Assembly (NCBI RefSeq): GCF_007827275.1
Contig: NZ_VISE01000001.1
Location: 620,001 to 684,000 of the forward strand
Length of the DNA: 64,000 bases
Reading direction: 5' to 3'
DNA from: Gillisia sp. Hel_I_86
GTDB lineage: Bacteria > Bacteroidota > Bacteroidia > Flavobacteriales > Flavobacteriaceae
Part shown: positions 3,154 through 43,479 of the stretch, one piece after another
Position numbering within the stretch: the first letter of the stretch is position 1
Layout: every line of letters begins with the position of its first letter
Notes under the pieces: generated by a model
Databases searched by the model: none
Seen by the model: the letters and a program-made list of their open reading frames with translations, nothing else
Told to the model about the DNA's origin: nothing
Translations under genes and position numbers: made by a program

Positions 3154-3200
3154 TAAAAATTAATTGGGTGTTCTTAAAGTATCATAATCGATAAGCAACG

Positions 3201-3282
3201 GTCATTCTGAACTTGTTTCAGAATCTCATTACACTTTAACGACCCTGAAATAAATTCAGGGTGACGACATGAATTTTATGAC
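3201..3282. repeat. Dispersed palindromic (REP-like) element
   Basis: Two small hairpins lie side by side between the PAP2 gene and the next small gene: TTCTGAA...TTCAGAA at 3205-3223 and CCCTGAA...TTCAGGG at 3243-3260. Bases 3201-3229 are identical, 29 of 29, to bases 41894-41922 inside the icmF reading frame. Related copies occur near 24.3, 25.3, 29.8, 39.4, 39.7 and 63.4 kb. Confidence 0.85.
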
Positions 3283-3303
3283 AAAAAACGGATACATATA
3301 AAA

Positions 3304-3531
3304 TTAATCGTCGTATCTGGATACTTCCCTATCGTAAAATTCATTTGCCTGTGTGATCAAGATCTCAGCTTCGGTAGCAAGTTCCTTTTCATCACCTTTA
3401 TCAAAATCTTCCAACCACTCTACATCGTCGTTTTCCAAATTGATTATAAATCTCGGATATTCTGTGTGGATCACAAAAATAGCATCCGGAAAATCGGTAT
3501 TATCACCTAAAAGAAATTTTGGGAATTCCAT
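3304..3531 (-). CDS. Small acidic protein, unknown function
   Basis: A 75-residue, strongly acidic protein starting MEFPKFLLGDNTDFPDAIFV. It has no signal peptide, no membrane segment and no motif I can assign. The sequence has a normal amino-acid mix with alternating hydrophobic and acidic residues, as in a compact cytosolic domain. It stands alone between the PAP2 and MATE genes. Similar short proteins are, to my recollection, common in flavobacteria, but I cannot name a family. A plus-strand frame across the same bases gives a low-complexity translation and was discarded. Confidence 0.65.
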   Translation of the reverse strand: MEFPKFLLGDNTDFPDAIFVIHTEYPRFIINLENDDVEWLEDFDKGDEKELATEAEILITQANEFYDREVSRYDD

Positions 3532-24290: not shown

Positions 24291-24530
24291 ATGTCATTCT
24301 GAACGCAGCGTAGCGGAGTGAAGAATCTCAACGTAATATTATTATCTCTCTTGAAAAGGGGGATCCCTCCTAGCGTTGGGATGACAATATAACAGAATTG
24401 CCATTCTGAAGGAAACGTAGTGAACTGAAATATCTCAATAATGTAGGTCATCCTGAATTCATTTTAGGATCTTAACAAAACATATTTCTAAATAACAGAA
24501 GCTGAAACAAGTTCAGCTTGACGAAGAAGT
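24291..24530. repeat. Cluster of degenerate dispersed repeats
   Basis: The 362-base gap between ilvE and the MazG-like gene is filled by several diverged copies of the REP-like family. Recognisable pieces are GTCATTCTGAACGCAGCG (24292 on), GCCATTCTGAAGGAAACG (24400 on), GTCATCCTGAATTCATTTTA (24447 on) and GAAACAAGTTCAGCTTGACG (24503 on). A short hairpin TCGCCAATTTGGCGA follows at 24554-24568. No gene is visible. Confidence 0.75.
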
Positions 24531-25285: not shown

Positions 25286-25385
25286 CTATCGTCACCCTGA
25301 ATTTATTTCAGGGTCTCAATATTTTAGTGGTTTACATTGAAATGAGATTCTGAAACTCCCGAACGGTCGGGACAGAATGACGTCA
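25286..25385. repeat. REP-like element with three hairpin pieces
   Basis: CACCCTGAATTTATTTCAGGGTCTC (split here over two hairpin arms) starts near 25291, followed by GAGATTCTGAAACTCCCGAA and a CGGTCGGGACAGAATGACG end. It is the same family as the 3.2 kb copy, in inverted arrangement. Confidence 0.75.
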
Positions 25386-29794: not shown

Positions 29795-30055
29795 AATGAG
29801 GTCGTTCTGTTCCGATAGCTGTCGGAATTGTTTCAGAATCTCATTTTCAATGTAAATCAATGCAAAATTGAGATCCTGAAATAAATTACCATTGACGTAT
29901 TTTTATTTATTTGTGAATCCAAGACCCTGAAACCAGTTCAGGGTGACGATGGGGAATTGTCGTCATGCTGAACTGGTTTCAGCATTACGACAATTTACTA
30001 CGCTGGATAATTTTTTTATCACGGGTCTCAGGGTGACAAAAAAACTTTTAGGACA
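29795..30055. repeat. Cluster of REP-like elements before the MFS gene
   Basis: The 484-base gap contains at least four pieces of the dispersed family. These are GTCGTTCTGTTCCGATAGCT (29803 on), GATCCTGAAATAAATTACC (29872 on), CCCTGAAACCAGTTCAGGGT (29924 on) and TCATGCTGAACTGGTTTCAG (29964 on). Several form perfect small hairpins. A -7-like TAATTTTG for the MFS gene follows at 30147-30154. No gene is visible. Confidence 0.75.
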
Positions 30056-39383: not shown

Positions 39384-39903
39384 TGTCCGTTCGAGCGCAG
39401 TCGAGAACCCATCAATTTAAAAAATTGGTTTCAACTTTAGCCTGTATTGAGCGCAGTCGAAATGCTCAACCTGACATCCTTATTACACATTATAATTTCG
39501 ATATGAACATAAATACTGACCTCTATATTTAATTTTAAAGATATTGAAAATAATATTTAACCTATAAAACCAAAAAATCCCAACTCTTAGGGAATTGGGA
39601 TTTTTGATTCTGTGTTTTATAATTATCTTATTGTATATACGTTTTTAGTCCAGCATTTCATCTGACTATCTAGTCACCCTGTCCCGAAGCATGGAGTTTC
39701 AGGATCTGCTCCGGACTTACTGGGATGCTGAAACAAGTTCAGCATGACGATAAGCCTGGGCATAGTTGCTTAAAAGCAATACTGGCACAAAAACAGATAA
39801 GCGATTCGCATACTCTTTACTAACTTAATTCTGCTGATAACATGATCCTGCTTGAAGAGATCCCGATATCGCTGCGCTCATCGGGATAAGCGATTCGCAC
39901 ACA
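39384..39903. repeat. Mosaic of repeats in a 643-base gap
   Basis: Pieces are recognisable in order. The first is GTTCGAGCGCAGTCGAGA near 39388, with its partner TTGAGCGCAGTCGAAATG near 39446. CACCCTGTCCCGAAGC (39675 on) is followed by GCTGAAACAAGTTCAGCATG near 39727. ATCCCGAT...ATCGGGAT forms a hairpin at 39860-39887. The 15-base sequence GATAAGCGATTCGCA occurs twice, at 39796-39810 and 39885-39899. No reading frame is plausible. Confidence 0.75.
39574..39605 (-). terminator. Terminator-like hairpin downstream of icmF
   Basis: On the minus strand TCCCAAT and GTTGGGA arms with an 11-base loop are followed by six T's. It lies 330 bases past the icmF stop and is the first strong terminator there. 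Confidence 0.6.
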
Positions 39904-39934: not shown

Positions 39935-42900
39935 TTACATATTTCTTCTATACTGCCCTCCTACTTCAAACATCGCTGTTGTGATCTGACCTAAAGAACA
40001 AACTTTAGTTGCATCCATTAAGACTTCAAATAAATTTTCATTTTTAATAGCCGCTTCTTGGATCAGTTCCAAAGCTTCCGCAGATTCTTTCTCAAAGGCT
40101 TTATGTAAATTTTTCAAAGTAGAAATCTGGTATTGTTTTTCTTCTTCTGTAGCTCTAATAACTTCTCCTGGCGTAACCGTGGGAGAACCTGTAGAACTCA
40201 AAAAAGTATTTACTCCTACAATTGGAAATTCGCCGTTGTGTTTCAAGGTTTCGTAGTACAAGCTTTCTTCTTGGATCTTACTGCGTTGGTACATGGTTTC
40301 CATAGCTCCCAAAACTCCACCTCTTTCTGTAATTCTATCGAATTCCAAAAGAACGGCTTCTTCCACAAGATCTGTTAACTCTTCTATAATGAATGCTCCC
40401 TGAATTGGGTTCTCATTTTTAGTAAGTCCCAACTCTTTATTGATGATAAGCTGAATAGCCATCGCTCTTCTTACTGAAGCTTCTGTAGGCGTTGTAATTG
40501 CTTCATCATACGCATTGGTATGTAAGGAATTACAGTTGTCATAGATAGCATAGAGCGCTTGAAGCGTTGTTCTAATGTCGTTGAAATCTATTTCCTGCGC
40601 ATGAAGTGAACGTCCAGAAGTTTGAATGTGGTATTTCAGCATCTGGGCTCTTGGATTCGCTCCGTATTTATATTTTAATGCCTTTGCCCAAATCTTTCTT
40701 GCCACCCTACCAATTACTGCATACTCAGGATCTACTCCGTTGGAGAAAAAGAACGAAAGGTTGGGCCCAAATTTATTGATATCCATTCCTCTACTCAAAT
40801 AATACTCAACATACGTAAATCCGTTGGCCAAGGTCAATGCCAACTGAGTAACAGGATTTGCTCCCGCTTCGGCAATATGATATCCAGAAATAGAAACCGA
40901 ATAAAAGTTTCTTACTTGCTCTTCAATAAAATATTCCTGTACATCTCCCATCAACCTCAAGGCATATTCCGTAGAGAAGATACAGGTGTTTTGTGCCTGA
41001 TCTTCTTTTAAAATATCTGCTTGCACAGTTCCACGAACTACATTTAAAGTGTTCTTTTTGATTTTGGCATATACATCTGCAGGAAGTACTTTATCGCCGG
41101 TTACCCCCAATAACATTAGTCCCAAGCCGTTATTACCTTCCGGAAGTTCTCCTTGATACGCAGGGCGATCTATTTTTTTATCCTTGTATATTTTTTTGAT
41201 CTTTTCCTCTACCTCTTTCTGAAGTTCATTTTCTATAATATATTTCTCACACTGCTGATCGATAGCCGCATTCATAAAGAAACCCAGCAACATTGGAGCG
41301 GGACCATTAATAGTCATACTCACCGAAGTCATGGCATCTGCTAGATCGAATCCTGAATACAATTTTTTTGCATCATCCAAACAACAAATAGATACTCCCG
41401 CATTTCCTATTTTTCCGTAAATATCTGGCCTAATATCTGGGTCGTTACCATAAAGTGTTACCGAATCGAAAGCTGTAGAAAGTCTCTTAGCTGGTAAACC
41501 CGCACTCACATAATGAAAACGTCTATTTGTTCTTTCCGGTCCGCCCTCTCCAGCAAACATTCTGCTTGGATCTTCCCCCGCTCTCTTAAATGGGTATAAT
41601 CCGGCGGTGTATGGGAATTCGCCCGGTACATTTTCTTGTAAACCCCATTTTAAAATGTCTCCCCAAGCCTGATATTTAGGTAAAGATATCTTTGGAATTT
41701 GAGTGTGGGAAAGAGACCCGATATGCGTTTCTATTTTTATTTCCTTGTCCCTCACTTTAAAAGAATAAACCGGCTCCTTGTATTTATTCACTTTTTCATC
41801 CCAACCAGTTATGATCTCCCAGTTATATGGATCGAGATCCATCTTTACCCTATCAAATTCAGCAATAAGAAGTTTTAGAAAATCTTTCTTCTCGTCATTC
41901 TGAACTTGTTTCAGAATCTCATCTGAATCTACACCGTGTTTATCTAAAAAAGACTTCTCGACTTCGCTCGACGTGACATTTGCAACAGAACCTATGGTTT
42001 TATAAATCCCATAAAGCTTCTGTGCAACTTCCTGCTGCGTACTGGCTGTATCATCATATTTTCTGTTATTTTCAGAAATTTCAGAAAGGTATCTTACCCT
42101 GCTTGGTGGGATCACATAAATTTTTTCACTTTTATCTTCATCAACATGAAAAGTGGAAGATAAAGCGGCCTCTGTTTTTTCATCTACTTTATTCATCAAC
42201 TTTCGGTATAGCGTATTCATCCCCGGATCGTTGAACTGGGAAGCAATAGTTCCATATACAGGGAGTGTTTCAGGATCGTCATGCCATAAGCCATGATTAC
42301 GCTGATATTGTTTCTTCACATCGCGAAGCGCATCTAAAGCTCCTCGTTTATCGAATTTATTGATCGCTACCAGATCTGCGAAGTCCAGCATATCTATTTT
42401 CTCCAATTGCGTAGCTGCTCCAAATTCCGGGGTCATTACATATAAAGAAGCATCAGAATGTTCTAAGATCTCGGTATCGGATTGTCCTATTCCTGAAGTT
42501 TCTAAAATAATAAGGTCGAAATTTGCTGCTTTTAATACTTCAACCGCTTCAGAAACATATTTAGACAAAGCCAAATTAGACTGACGGGTTGCCAAAGAAC
42601 GCATATAAACCCGATCATTATTAATGGCATTCATTCGGATTCTATCTCCCAATAAAGCGCCACCGGTTTTACGTTTTGATGGATCTACAGATACAATTCC
42701 GATGGTTTTTTCCGGGAAGTCGATTAAAAACCTTCTTACCAATTCATCTACCAAAGAAGATTTTCCAGACCCCCCGGTTCCGGTAATTCCCAGAACAGGA
42801 GTTTTCTTTCCGTTAAGTTCTATCTTATTGAAAGCCTTCTTAAAATCTTCATGCCTGTTTTCAGCTAAAGAAATCAATCTGGCAATGGTGTTTATATTTT

Positions 42901-43387
42901 TTTCCTTTAAAAGGCTTTGTGTTTTATCGGCTTTTTCCAGAGCAGGAGTTGGAGTATCTGAAGTTTTCACCAAATCGTTGATCATTCCCTGCAAGCCCAT
43001 TTCTCGTCCATCATCGGGTGCATAGATTTTGGTAATTCCATAACCCATAAGTTCTTTGATCTCTGATGGAAGGATCACTCCACCGCCGCCGCCAAAGATT
43101 TTGATATGCTCTGCTCCTTTTTCCTTAAGCAAATCGTACATGTATTTAAAATACTCATTATGCCCACCTTGGTAGGAAGTCATGGCAATAGCATTGGCAT
43201 CTTCTTGAATCGCACAATTCACTACTTCTTCTACACTGCGATCATGACCCAAATGAATCACTTCTACCCCTGTAGACTGAATGATACGGCGCATAATATT
43301 AATCGCGGCATCATGTCCATCAAAAAGCGAGGCTGCTGTTACTATTCTTACTTTATTGGTAGGGATATATGGAGTTTGATCTTGCAT
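39935..43387 (-). CDS. icmF: Fused isobutyryl-CoA mutase IcmF with in-frame repeat insert
   Basis: A 1150-residue B12 enzyme that interconverts isobutyryl- and butyryl-CoA (sometimes pivalyl/isovaleryl-CoA). The B12 domain (1-140) has the DGHDAA motif with H25 as cobalt ligand. The MeaI-type GTPase (about 195-430) has the P-loop GTGGSGKSS at 203-211. The mutase barrel (about 530-1150) follows, with typical [16 protein letters not shown] and [14 protein letters not shown] segments. Residues 470-498 are encoded by a REP-like element; see findings. I start at ATG 43387 since [20 protein letters not shown] is the family start; an upstream in-frame start at 43453 lies in the leader. Confidence 0.95.
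41894..41980. repeat. REP-like element inside the icmF reading frame
   Basis: Bases 41894-41922 equal intergenic bases 3201-3229 exactly, and CTTCTCGACTTCGCTCGACG at 41954-41973 matches another common piece of the same family. The insert spans 87 bases, 29 codons, so it keeps the frame. It encodes the linker residues [10 protein letters not shown] and TSSEVEKSF between the GTPase and mutase domains. Confidence 0.85.
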
Positions 43388-43479
43388 TGTTATTCTAAAT
43401 TTTTGGAGCTGCAATTTACTAAATTCGTAAAGATTTTTCCTTATAAGTTCCATTTTTAAGGAATTCCTTAATATAAAAA

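Follow-up and report, generated by a model that had tools for sequence, protein, structure and literature searches.

Several types of palindromic repeat translated in frame in one IcmF linker across Flavobacteriaceae: probable recurrent capture of REPs

REPs are called extragenic, and in-frame copies have been described mainly as scattered cases. The RPEs of Rickettsia are palindromes that occur in several genes of one species and are translated in frame. In the sections of Di Nocera et al. 2013 (PMC3733652) drawn on here, RPE-4 and RPE-6 are assigned to the CGTC-tagged REPs, intragenic CGTC units are reported, and Bacteroidetes are counted among the phyla with CGTC repeats; its section 15 holds a single case of intragenic REPs at the same site, in recB of two Xanthomonas species. 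A word search of that paper returned neither "Flavobacter" nor "Gramella". Two Flavobacterium genomes are listed as REP-rich by RepRanger (PMC12306157); the portion of that source used here treats counts, not translated copies, and the words "in-frame" and "intragenic" are absent from its text. In-frame REPs as a general kind are already known. In the literature searched, with most subscription journals outside its scope, we found no report of REPs in IcmF, of in-frame REPs in Flavobacteriaceae, or of several repeat types recurring in the same orthologous linker in different genera.

We analyzed a window of 64,000 bases (bases 620001-684000 of the 4,245,106-base chromosome of Gillisia sp. Hel_I_86), in which two repeats, REP-A and REP-B, are translated within icmF. 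Units of the CGTC superfamily have an unpaired CGTC (or TGTC/CCTC) at one end, a stem of 8-9 bp that begins with AT pairs, a loop of 4-5 nt and a short unpaired tail, mostly CCA; they form mostly HH dimers, with no transposase gene alongside. Set against the CGTC-tagged REPs as described in those sections of PMC3733652, REP-B is alike in its CGTC tag, its 8-bp stem starting with AT, its 5-nt loop, its frequent inverted pairs and the lack of a linked transposase, whereas its tail is not clearly CCA and the A-type units differ, being mostly TGTC-tagged with an interrupted stem. The likeness to RPEs proposed in an earlier note on this DNA therefore stands by class, RPE-4 and RPE-6 being assigned to a group whose tag, stem and loop REP-B has, and sequence homology to RPEs forms no part of it. 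RPEs are likewise palindromes translated in frame inside ORFs, but they occupy several genes of one species, whereas in IcmF a single linker of a single gene is concerned, in many genera and with several repeat types. The Xanthomonas recB REPs, as presented in that section 15, involve two species, in contrast to many genera in IcmF (judged by group code and record title), at least seven types and a mosaic arrangement over several slots. REPs mobilized by RAYTs are similar as short palindromes with a 5' tag, often in inverted pairs; the window's genome differs in having one RAYT gene, about 1.1 kb from the nearest REP, and RAYTs show no association with linker REPs in the genomes compared.

The icmF product carries the Pfam B12-binding, MeaB (G-protein) and MM_CoA_mutase domains in one chain and belongs to IcmF, with 4xc6 as its solved homologue. 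In the coding sense, the linker between the GTPase and mutase domains consists of REP-A, a nine-residue middle and REP-B (Table 1). The ORF translation and the NF045497 score bear out the earlier description of a repeat that lies in frame and is translated within this linker, and the 29 bases 41894-41922 match intergenic 3201-3229 exactly, as had been noticed. The same description took the stretch for a single 87-base insertion of 29 residues, which does not hold: it comprises two REPs of different types together with FLDKHGVDS. REP-A, the second of them, had been overlooked, as had the recurrence across the family and the existence of several repeat types. The residue numbers 470-498 given for the insertion fit a start at M23; counted from the ORF start at 43453 on the minus strand, the residues are 492-520. 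M23 of the window ORF is invariant across 30 aligned IcmF sequences and is likely the true start. An AlphaFold2 model of the window IcmF built from 30 sequences had a mean pLDDT of 54.9, which is too weak to judge the tolerance of the linker; residues 471-550 of this low-confidence model score 69-86 per block of ten, mainly as helices, and are not relied on.

Table 1. Features of the window discussed in the text; positions are those of the window.
Feature	Position	Strand	Description
icmF	39935..43453	minus	isobutyryl-CoA mutase fused to a GTPase (1172 aa); 1733.5 bits with NCBIfam NF045497, whose cutoff is 1500
REP-A slot, type A1	41951..41977	minus	coding strand GTCACGTCGAGCGAAGTCGAGAAGTCT; residues 493-501 VTSSEVEKS; 0 mismatches to A1 pattern
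Linker middle	41924..41950	minus	residues 502-510 FLDKHGVDS; lines up with the LxKxG found in shorter relatives
REP-B slot, type B1	41894..41922	minus	reverse complement GATTCTGAAACAAGTTCAGAATGAC; codes residues 511-520 (codons 41894-41923)
REP-B pair, inverted, tags outward	3201..3267	+	intergenic; 29 bases of the left half match the icmF copy exactly; z -4.39 for the folded stretch 3201-3273
REP-B copy	39724..39748	+	intergenic, ~190 bases downstream of icmF stop
REP-A1-like copy, 1 mismatch	39385..39406	+	intergenic, ~530 bases downstream of icmF stop (G000:C1:659385-659406)
Degenerate REP-B pair	24447..24524		intergenic
Degenerate REP-B-like repeats	25291..25356		intergenic (D1, I8, I10)
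Degenerate REP-B pair	29923..29990		intergenic

Fifteen congeners were searched alongside the window's own genome, and the linker was readable in 14. Six of them (G003, G006, G007, G008, G009, G013) carry REP-derived linker segments, some decayed, with 46-47 residues in the compared columns. Seven shorter linkers (G001, G002, G004, G005, G010, G012, G015) have 38-39 residues in the same columns and match none of 11 REP consensuses within 5 mismatches. The linker of G011 is short by eye and absent from the alignment, with icmF broken by frame changes; this gene (G011:C1:1785364-1788810; L133, L135) lies in several frames with internal stops and represents either a decaying gene or an assembly fault. 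No linker was recovered from G014. The same alignment columns hold 46 residues in the window, and the net gain over the short-linker congeners is 7-8 residues rather than the 29 new residues formerly counted. The LxKxG motif is kept in the short linkers and lines up with FLDKHG of the window, indicating that the middle segment is probably older than the repeats. Conservation of the residues in species lacking the repeat, which the earlier note had named as the finding that would speak against a repeat origin, was observed for this middle LxKxG only and did not extend to the REP-coded residues.

A short linker is not equal to a repeat-free one. In G004 (L128) and G010 (L039/L130), LSLSK before the G of the motif is coded by a B2-type palindrome core, CTGAGCCTGTCGAA(G/A), with 0 and 1 mismatches, respectively, and "repeat-free congeners" was accordingly rejected as a label for the seven short linkers. 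The 15-base core has 10 occurrences in G004, including the icmF copy, and no exact occurrence in G010. In some species, REPs may have given rise to part of the LxKxG motif. LSLSK or LSLTK was also observed to be coded by the core CTGAGC(C/T)TGTCGAAG, or beside it, with 0-2 mismatches in L128, L039/L130, L097 and L083, and the short linker of L097 holds two copies of that B2 core in opposite orientation.

The dispersed and palindromic nature of the repeat, as originally described, was confirmed at the level of the chromosome. REP-B-like sites number 292 (138 + 154) when up to 3 mismatches to the REP-B pattern are allowed, with 0 for the reversed control, and the A1 pattern of REP-A occurs at 98 sites genome-wide at up to 2 mismatches, again with 0 for the reversed control. 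The icmF copy of REP-B folds into an 8-bp stem with a 5-nt loop (DNA fold z -3.19), a structure found in all three folded B1 copies (41894-41922, the left half of 3201-3273, and 39720-39760), and the stem begins with AT. The tag was CGTC in 27, TGTC in 2 and GGTC in 1 of 30 exact copies, for which the search pattern fixed GTC and left the first base free, and CGTC in 19 of 20 one-mismatch copies; the icmF copy itself reads CGTC. The tail of the 20 one-mismatch copies was CCCA in 11, CTCA in 4 and another sequence in 5, exact copies being uninformative since the pattern forces CT after the stem. An inverted partner lay at most 114 nt from 20 of the 30 REP-B copies, an arrangement that may correspond to HH dimers.

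Among 30 REP-A copies, the tag was TGTC in 23, GGTC in 5, AGTC in 1 and CGTC in 1. The window copy, the sole A copy folded, forms only a 4-bp stem and folds worse than most shuffles (z 1.65); judged on this copy, REP-A falls outside the CGTC superfamily as delimited by a CGTC or TGTC tag with an 8-9 bp stem. REP-A types have the GTC tag in common and resemble one another in the core, the arms being type-specific. Both REP types are also present in the gap downstream of the icmF stop. From the window's own genome we sampled 80 REP copies, made up of exact B1 and exact A1 copies (in each case the first 30 of 38) and 20 one-mismatch B1 copies, and only the two icmF copies lay deep in a long ORF; 12 others fell in mechanical ORFs of 62-164 codons.

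By eye, many REP-B pairs sit within a longer element, about 170 bases in length and bounded by roughly TGTATATCCGTAAAGTATC and GACAAAAAACGGATATACA, which is MITE-like with terminal inverted repeats; one spans about 3155-3310 of the window, and similar elements were seen at L018-L022, L027 and L030. Tandem arrays were observed at G000:C1:69016-69631 (L294-L297) and 3068643-3071440, the former with four units spaced 198 bases, each containing an A1 REP and further palindromes.

To describe the linker across the family, we built an alignment of 205 IcmF rows. It comprises the window, 14 genus loci, 110 loci from a family search and 80 named loci, the last being the best 80 out of 589 that were confirmed. 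The family search matched 249 of 349 genomes, from which we used the 30 best together with 80 picked among the listed places, partly for longer matches; the sample is biased toward window-like genes, and one row (L133) has no linker letters. At up to 5 mismatches, 72 of the 205 linkers match one of 11 REP consensuses, which were partly read off the linkers themselves, compared with 0 of 205 letter-reversed linkers. The matches comprise 17 of the 80 named loci, 6 of the 14 genus loci, 48 of the 110 family loci and the window. Outside the linker, in gene sequence about 25 times its length, the same consensuses gave 8 row-hits. After removal of duplicates (the window's second copy and five others), 71 of 199 linkers match at up to 5 mismatches, and 66, 56 and 51 at up to 4, 3 and 2, respectively. 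A set of 8 patterns, one of them loosened, gave 3 chance-like matches outside the linker at 4 mismatches. Most sampled linkers, 133 of 205, match no consensus; the B2 core adds three linkers (L039, L083, L128) to those found with the 11 consensuses.

A consensus-free measure gave the same direction. GTC-tagged perfect hairpins occur at 2.47 per kb in linkers versus 0.43 in the rest of the gene (5.7 times), and hairpins with other tags at 68.9 versus 58.5 (1.2 times). A GTC-tagged perfect hairpin is present in 52 of 201 linkers, 15 of which have no consensus match, some surely by chance. A class search beyond the family added 27 new loci, of which 17 linkers were parsed and 4 matched a consensus at up to 5 mismatches: L347 belongs to the window's own family, and L349, L351 and L352 belong to other families, with 4-5 mismatches. 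In the IcmF linkers of these last three loci, EEILRS segments are possibly REP-derived.

The REP matches fall at two or three slots of the linker. Taking the best match per slot at up to 4 mismatches over 202 rows, the 5' slot (before LxKxG) holds A1 in 23 rows, A4 in 8, A2 in 6, A3 in 6 and F1 in 1, and the 3' slot (after LxKxG) holds B1 in 24, B2 in 12, A1 in 6, F1 in 5, B3 in 1 and H1 in 1. Because the A types are mutually related, the count of at least seven types does not mean seven unrelated families. The combinations include A1+B1 in 12 rows, A1+B2 in 3, A2+B1 in 2, A2+B2 in 2, A4+B2 in 3, and A3 with B1, B2 or B3 in one each; B1 occurs without a 5'-slot REP in 8. L064 and L188 have A3+B2 in common and differ in a third palindrome, which is A1 in L188 and, by eye, a GTCATTCC...GGAATCT palindrome in L064. 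A1 is doubled in L214, and REP-B contains an extra inner palindrome in L164 and L168 (by eye). F1 occupies the second slot in 5 Flavobacterium rows, and close kin carry a sequence of the same length that by eye resembles decayed F1. L221 and L347, of one genus by group code, have B1 and a reversed A1 at corresponding places. Linkers lengthened by a further stretch were seen in L053, L064, L225, L233 and L235; that of L064 reads, for example, VIPMEGGMTDKES, and its DNA resembles another GTCATTCC...GGAATCT palindrome. On a FastTree tree of the one gene minus its linker, the first slot requires at least 52 changes and the second at least 42, counts that include losses and decay and are unable to tell gain from loss.

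Two pairs stood out among 57 row pairs with at least 88% identity of gene DNA. In L153/L217 (one genus by group code), the gene DNA is 95.4% identical and the linker 46%; in L154/L063, the values are 95.7% and 43%. Identity in these switched pairs drops within about 30 codons on both sides of the linker. Near-identical genes with unrelated linkers indicate that the linker can change as a block, by allele exchange or by rapid rebuilding. L151 and L153 resemble each other more closely in the linker (0.872) than in the remainder of the gene (0.819). A donor whose linker is near-identical did not turn up among the rows compared, and the flanks of the window linker gave no clear signal of import from another genus.

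Evidence at the level of the palindrome came from REP-A. Its free base 6 tends to pair with base 23, the base that determines residue 8. Of 17 rows, 12 have a Watson-Crick pair, compared with 5.1 expected by shuffling, and 3 of 20000 shuffles were as good. The set comprises 17 of 38 selected rows, those in which REP-A has AC as bases 4-5, and the free base is the third of a threonine codon; ACT occurs with AAG, ACA with ATG, ACG with ACG, and ACC with AGG. Five of the rows are of the ACCTTG type and differ by at most 2 mismatches from A2, in whose consensus the base pair is fixed; without them the count is 9 of 12, and 8 of 11 when L165 is also left out. Four of the 17 rows belong to the window's genus, and the window copy itself is unpaired at these bases. 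Covariation of a synonymous base with the base of a downstream residue argues that whole palindromes arrive, not peptides.

The abundance of REPs elsewhere in each genome was compared with the content of its linker, kinship being ignored as in every test of this analysis. Genomes with a linker A1 within 2 mismatches have a median of 13 A1 copies elsewhere (n=16), versus 2 in those without (n=64; p=0.0018), and other A1 copies are present in 15 of the 16. The link for B1, likewise with kinship ignored, is weak (4.5 versus 2.0, p=0.036). In four genomes the icmF copy of A4 is the only one at up to 2 mismatches, suggesting that some linker REPs may be relics that outlasted their family.

A RAYT or IS200 transposase as the mobilizer was not supported by neighborhood or association data. 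Such REPs were absent from the fetched stretch at 28 of 30 RAYT-type loci and present at 2, and linker REPs showed no association with RAYTs (11 of 18 genomes over the cutoff versus 35 of 62 others, p=0.79). Of 13 Y1 transposase places in the window's genome, two (L035, L259) have degenerate or exact REP-B copies nearby, more than 600 bases from the transposase gene, and L260 has one loose-pattern match. REP-B resembles the CGTC-tagged REPs in having no adjacent transposase. The single RAYT gene of this genome, G000:C1:2130686-2131159 (L259, L265), scores 105 bits with NF047646 (cutoff 80), and a REP-B pair lies about 1.1 kb upstream of it. Four near-identical IS200-family copies (G000:C1:1420222, 3194027, 3207853 and 3411726; L031-L034) have alike immediate flanks, and no REP matches were found in the flanking stretches examined around them. 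REPs may be moved by a RAYT acting in trans.

We consider it probable that REPs have been recurrently captured in frame, have decayed and have been replaced in a permissive inter-domain linker of Flavobacteriaceae IcmF, with linker exchange in addition. In-frame REPs, several types per slot, mosaics, near-identical genes with unrelated linkers and base-pair covariation were seen directly; capture itself would proceed by copying or conversion, under selection on frame and length and with tolerance by the enzyme. The GTPase-mutase linker would be a permissive site that GTC-tagged palindromes have entered in frame repeatedly, each arriving as an intact palindrome copied from the resident genomic pool. 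It would survive only where its frame is open and mostly polar and the linker has a workable length, and insertions that keep frame and length would persist because the hinge tolerates them. Later, a copy would decay by point mutation, or be refreshed or replaced by another REP or by the linker allele of a relative. The linker of the window's species has an A1 REP and a B1 REP flanking the LxKxG segment. A more far-reaching proposal, which we put forward tentatively and think unlikely to hold in full, is that the linker is a landing site whose resident palindromes are captured, homogenized against the pool and swapped between species as a cassette, so that repeat DNA, and not point mutation alone, diversifies the length and make-up of the hinge joining the chaperone GTPase to the mutase, possibly affecting B12 loading.

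The switched pairs, whose linkers differ wholly including the middle, and the greater likeness of L151 and L153 in the linker than elsewhere, would also suit movement of whole linker alleles between species by homologous recombination at conserved flanks, with REPs as passengers and their own entry rare and old. We regard this as rather improbable as the main process: a near-identical donor is missing among the rows compared, and the third slot of L064/L188, the doubled A1 of L214, the eight rows with B1 and no 5' REP, and the A1 abundance ask for repeated entry too. A single ancient insertion of a REP dimer, inherited vertically and now under protein-level selection, would account for the A-type and B-type pair pointing outward like intergenic pairs and for the wide recurrence of some REP-coded residues; different types in the same slot, the covariation, unmatched slots in close relatives and the linker switches make it very improbable. 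Comparably slight odds attach to retention of the palindromes as a DNA or mRNA hairpin acting at the domain boundary, for example in ribosome pausing or mRNA processing. In four congeners with intact REP-B, all 8 comparable REP-B codons are synonymously invariant, versus 390 of 937 elsewhere (p=0.0009) and 1 of 6 in the middle segment; these congeners were chosen for an intact REP-B, so that recent entry, refreshing from the pool and hairpin selection are not separable. Against a hairpin role are also the lost or decayed copies of L121, L123 and L125, the poor fold of the window REP-A and the 133 rows that match no consensus. Some unmatched linkers are alike at the protein level, such as DEEILQNAKNDD in L042, as would be expected if a polar helix had come to resemble translated REPs by chance or convergence, an explanation to which we give almost no credence: exact DNA matches of 25-29 bases already refute it, and the GTC-tag enrichment and the zero counts of the reversed controls oppose it as well.

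One orthologous linker would record many captures of different repeat types in a range of genera, where fresh and decayed copies coexist with unmatched linkers. Two questions become testable in this system: how REPs move without a linked transposase, and whether selfish-looking palindromes serve as raw material for protein linkers. Where flavobacterial proteins contain residues such as VIASETKQS or those coded by REP-B, these may stem from translated repeat DNA and need not be conserved peptide motifs. In many Flavobacteriaceae, one piece of a protein seems to be rewritten over and over by selfish-looking DNA.
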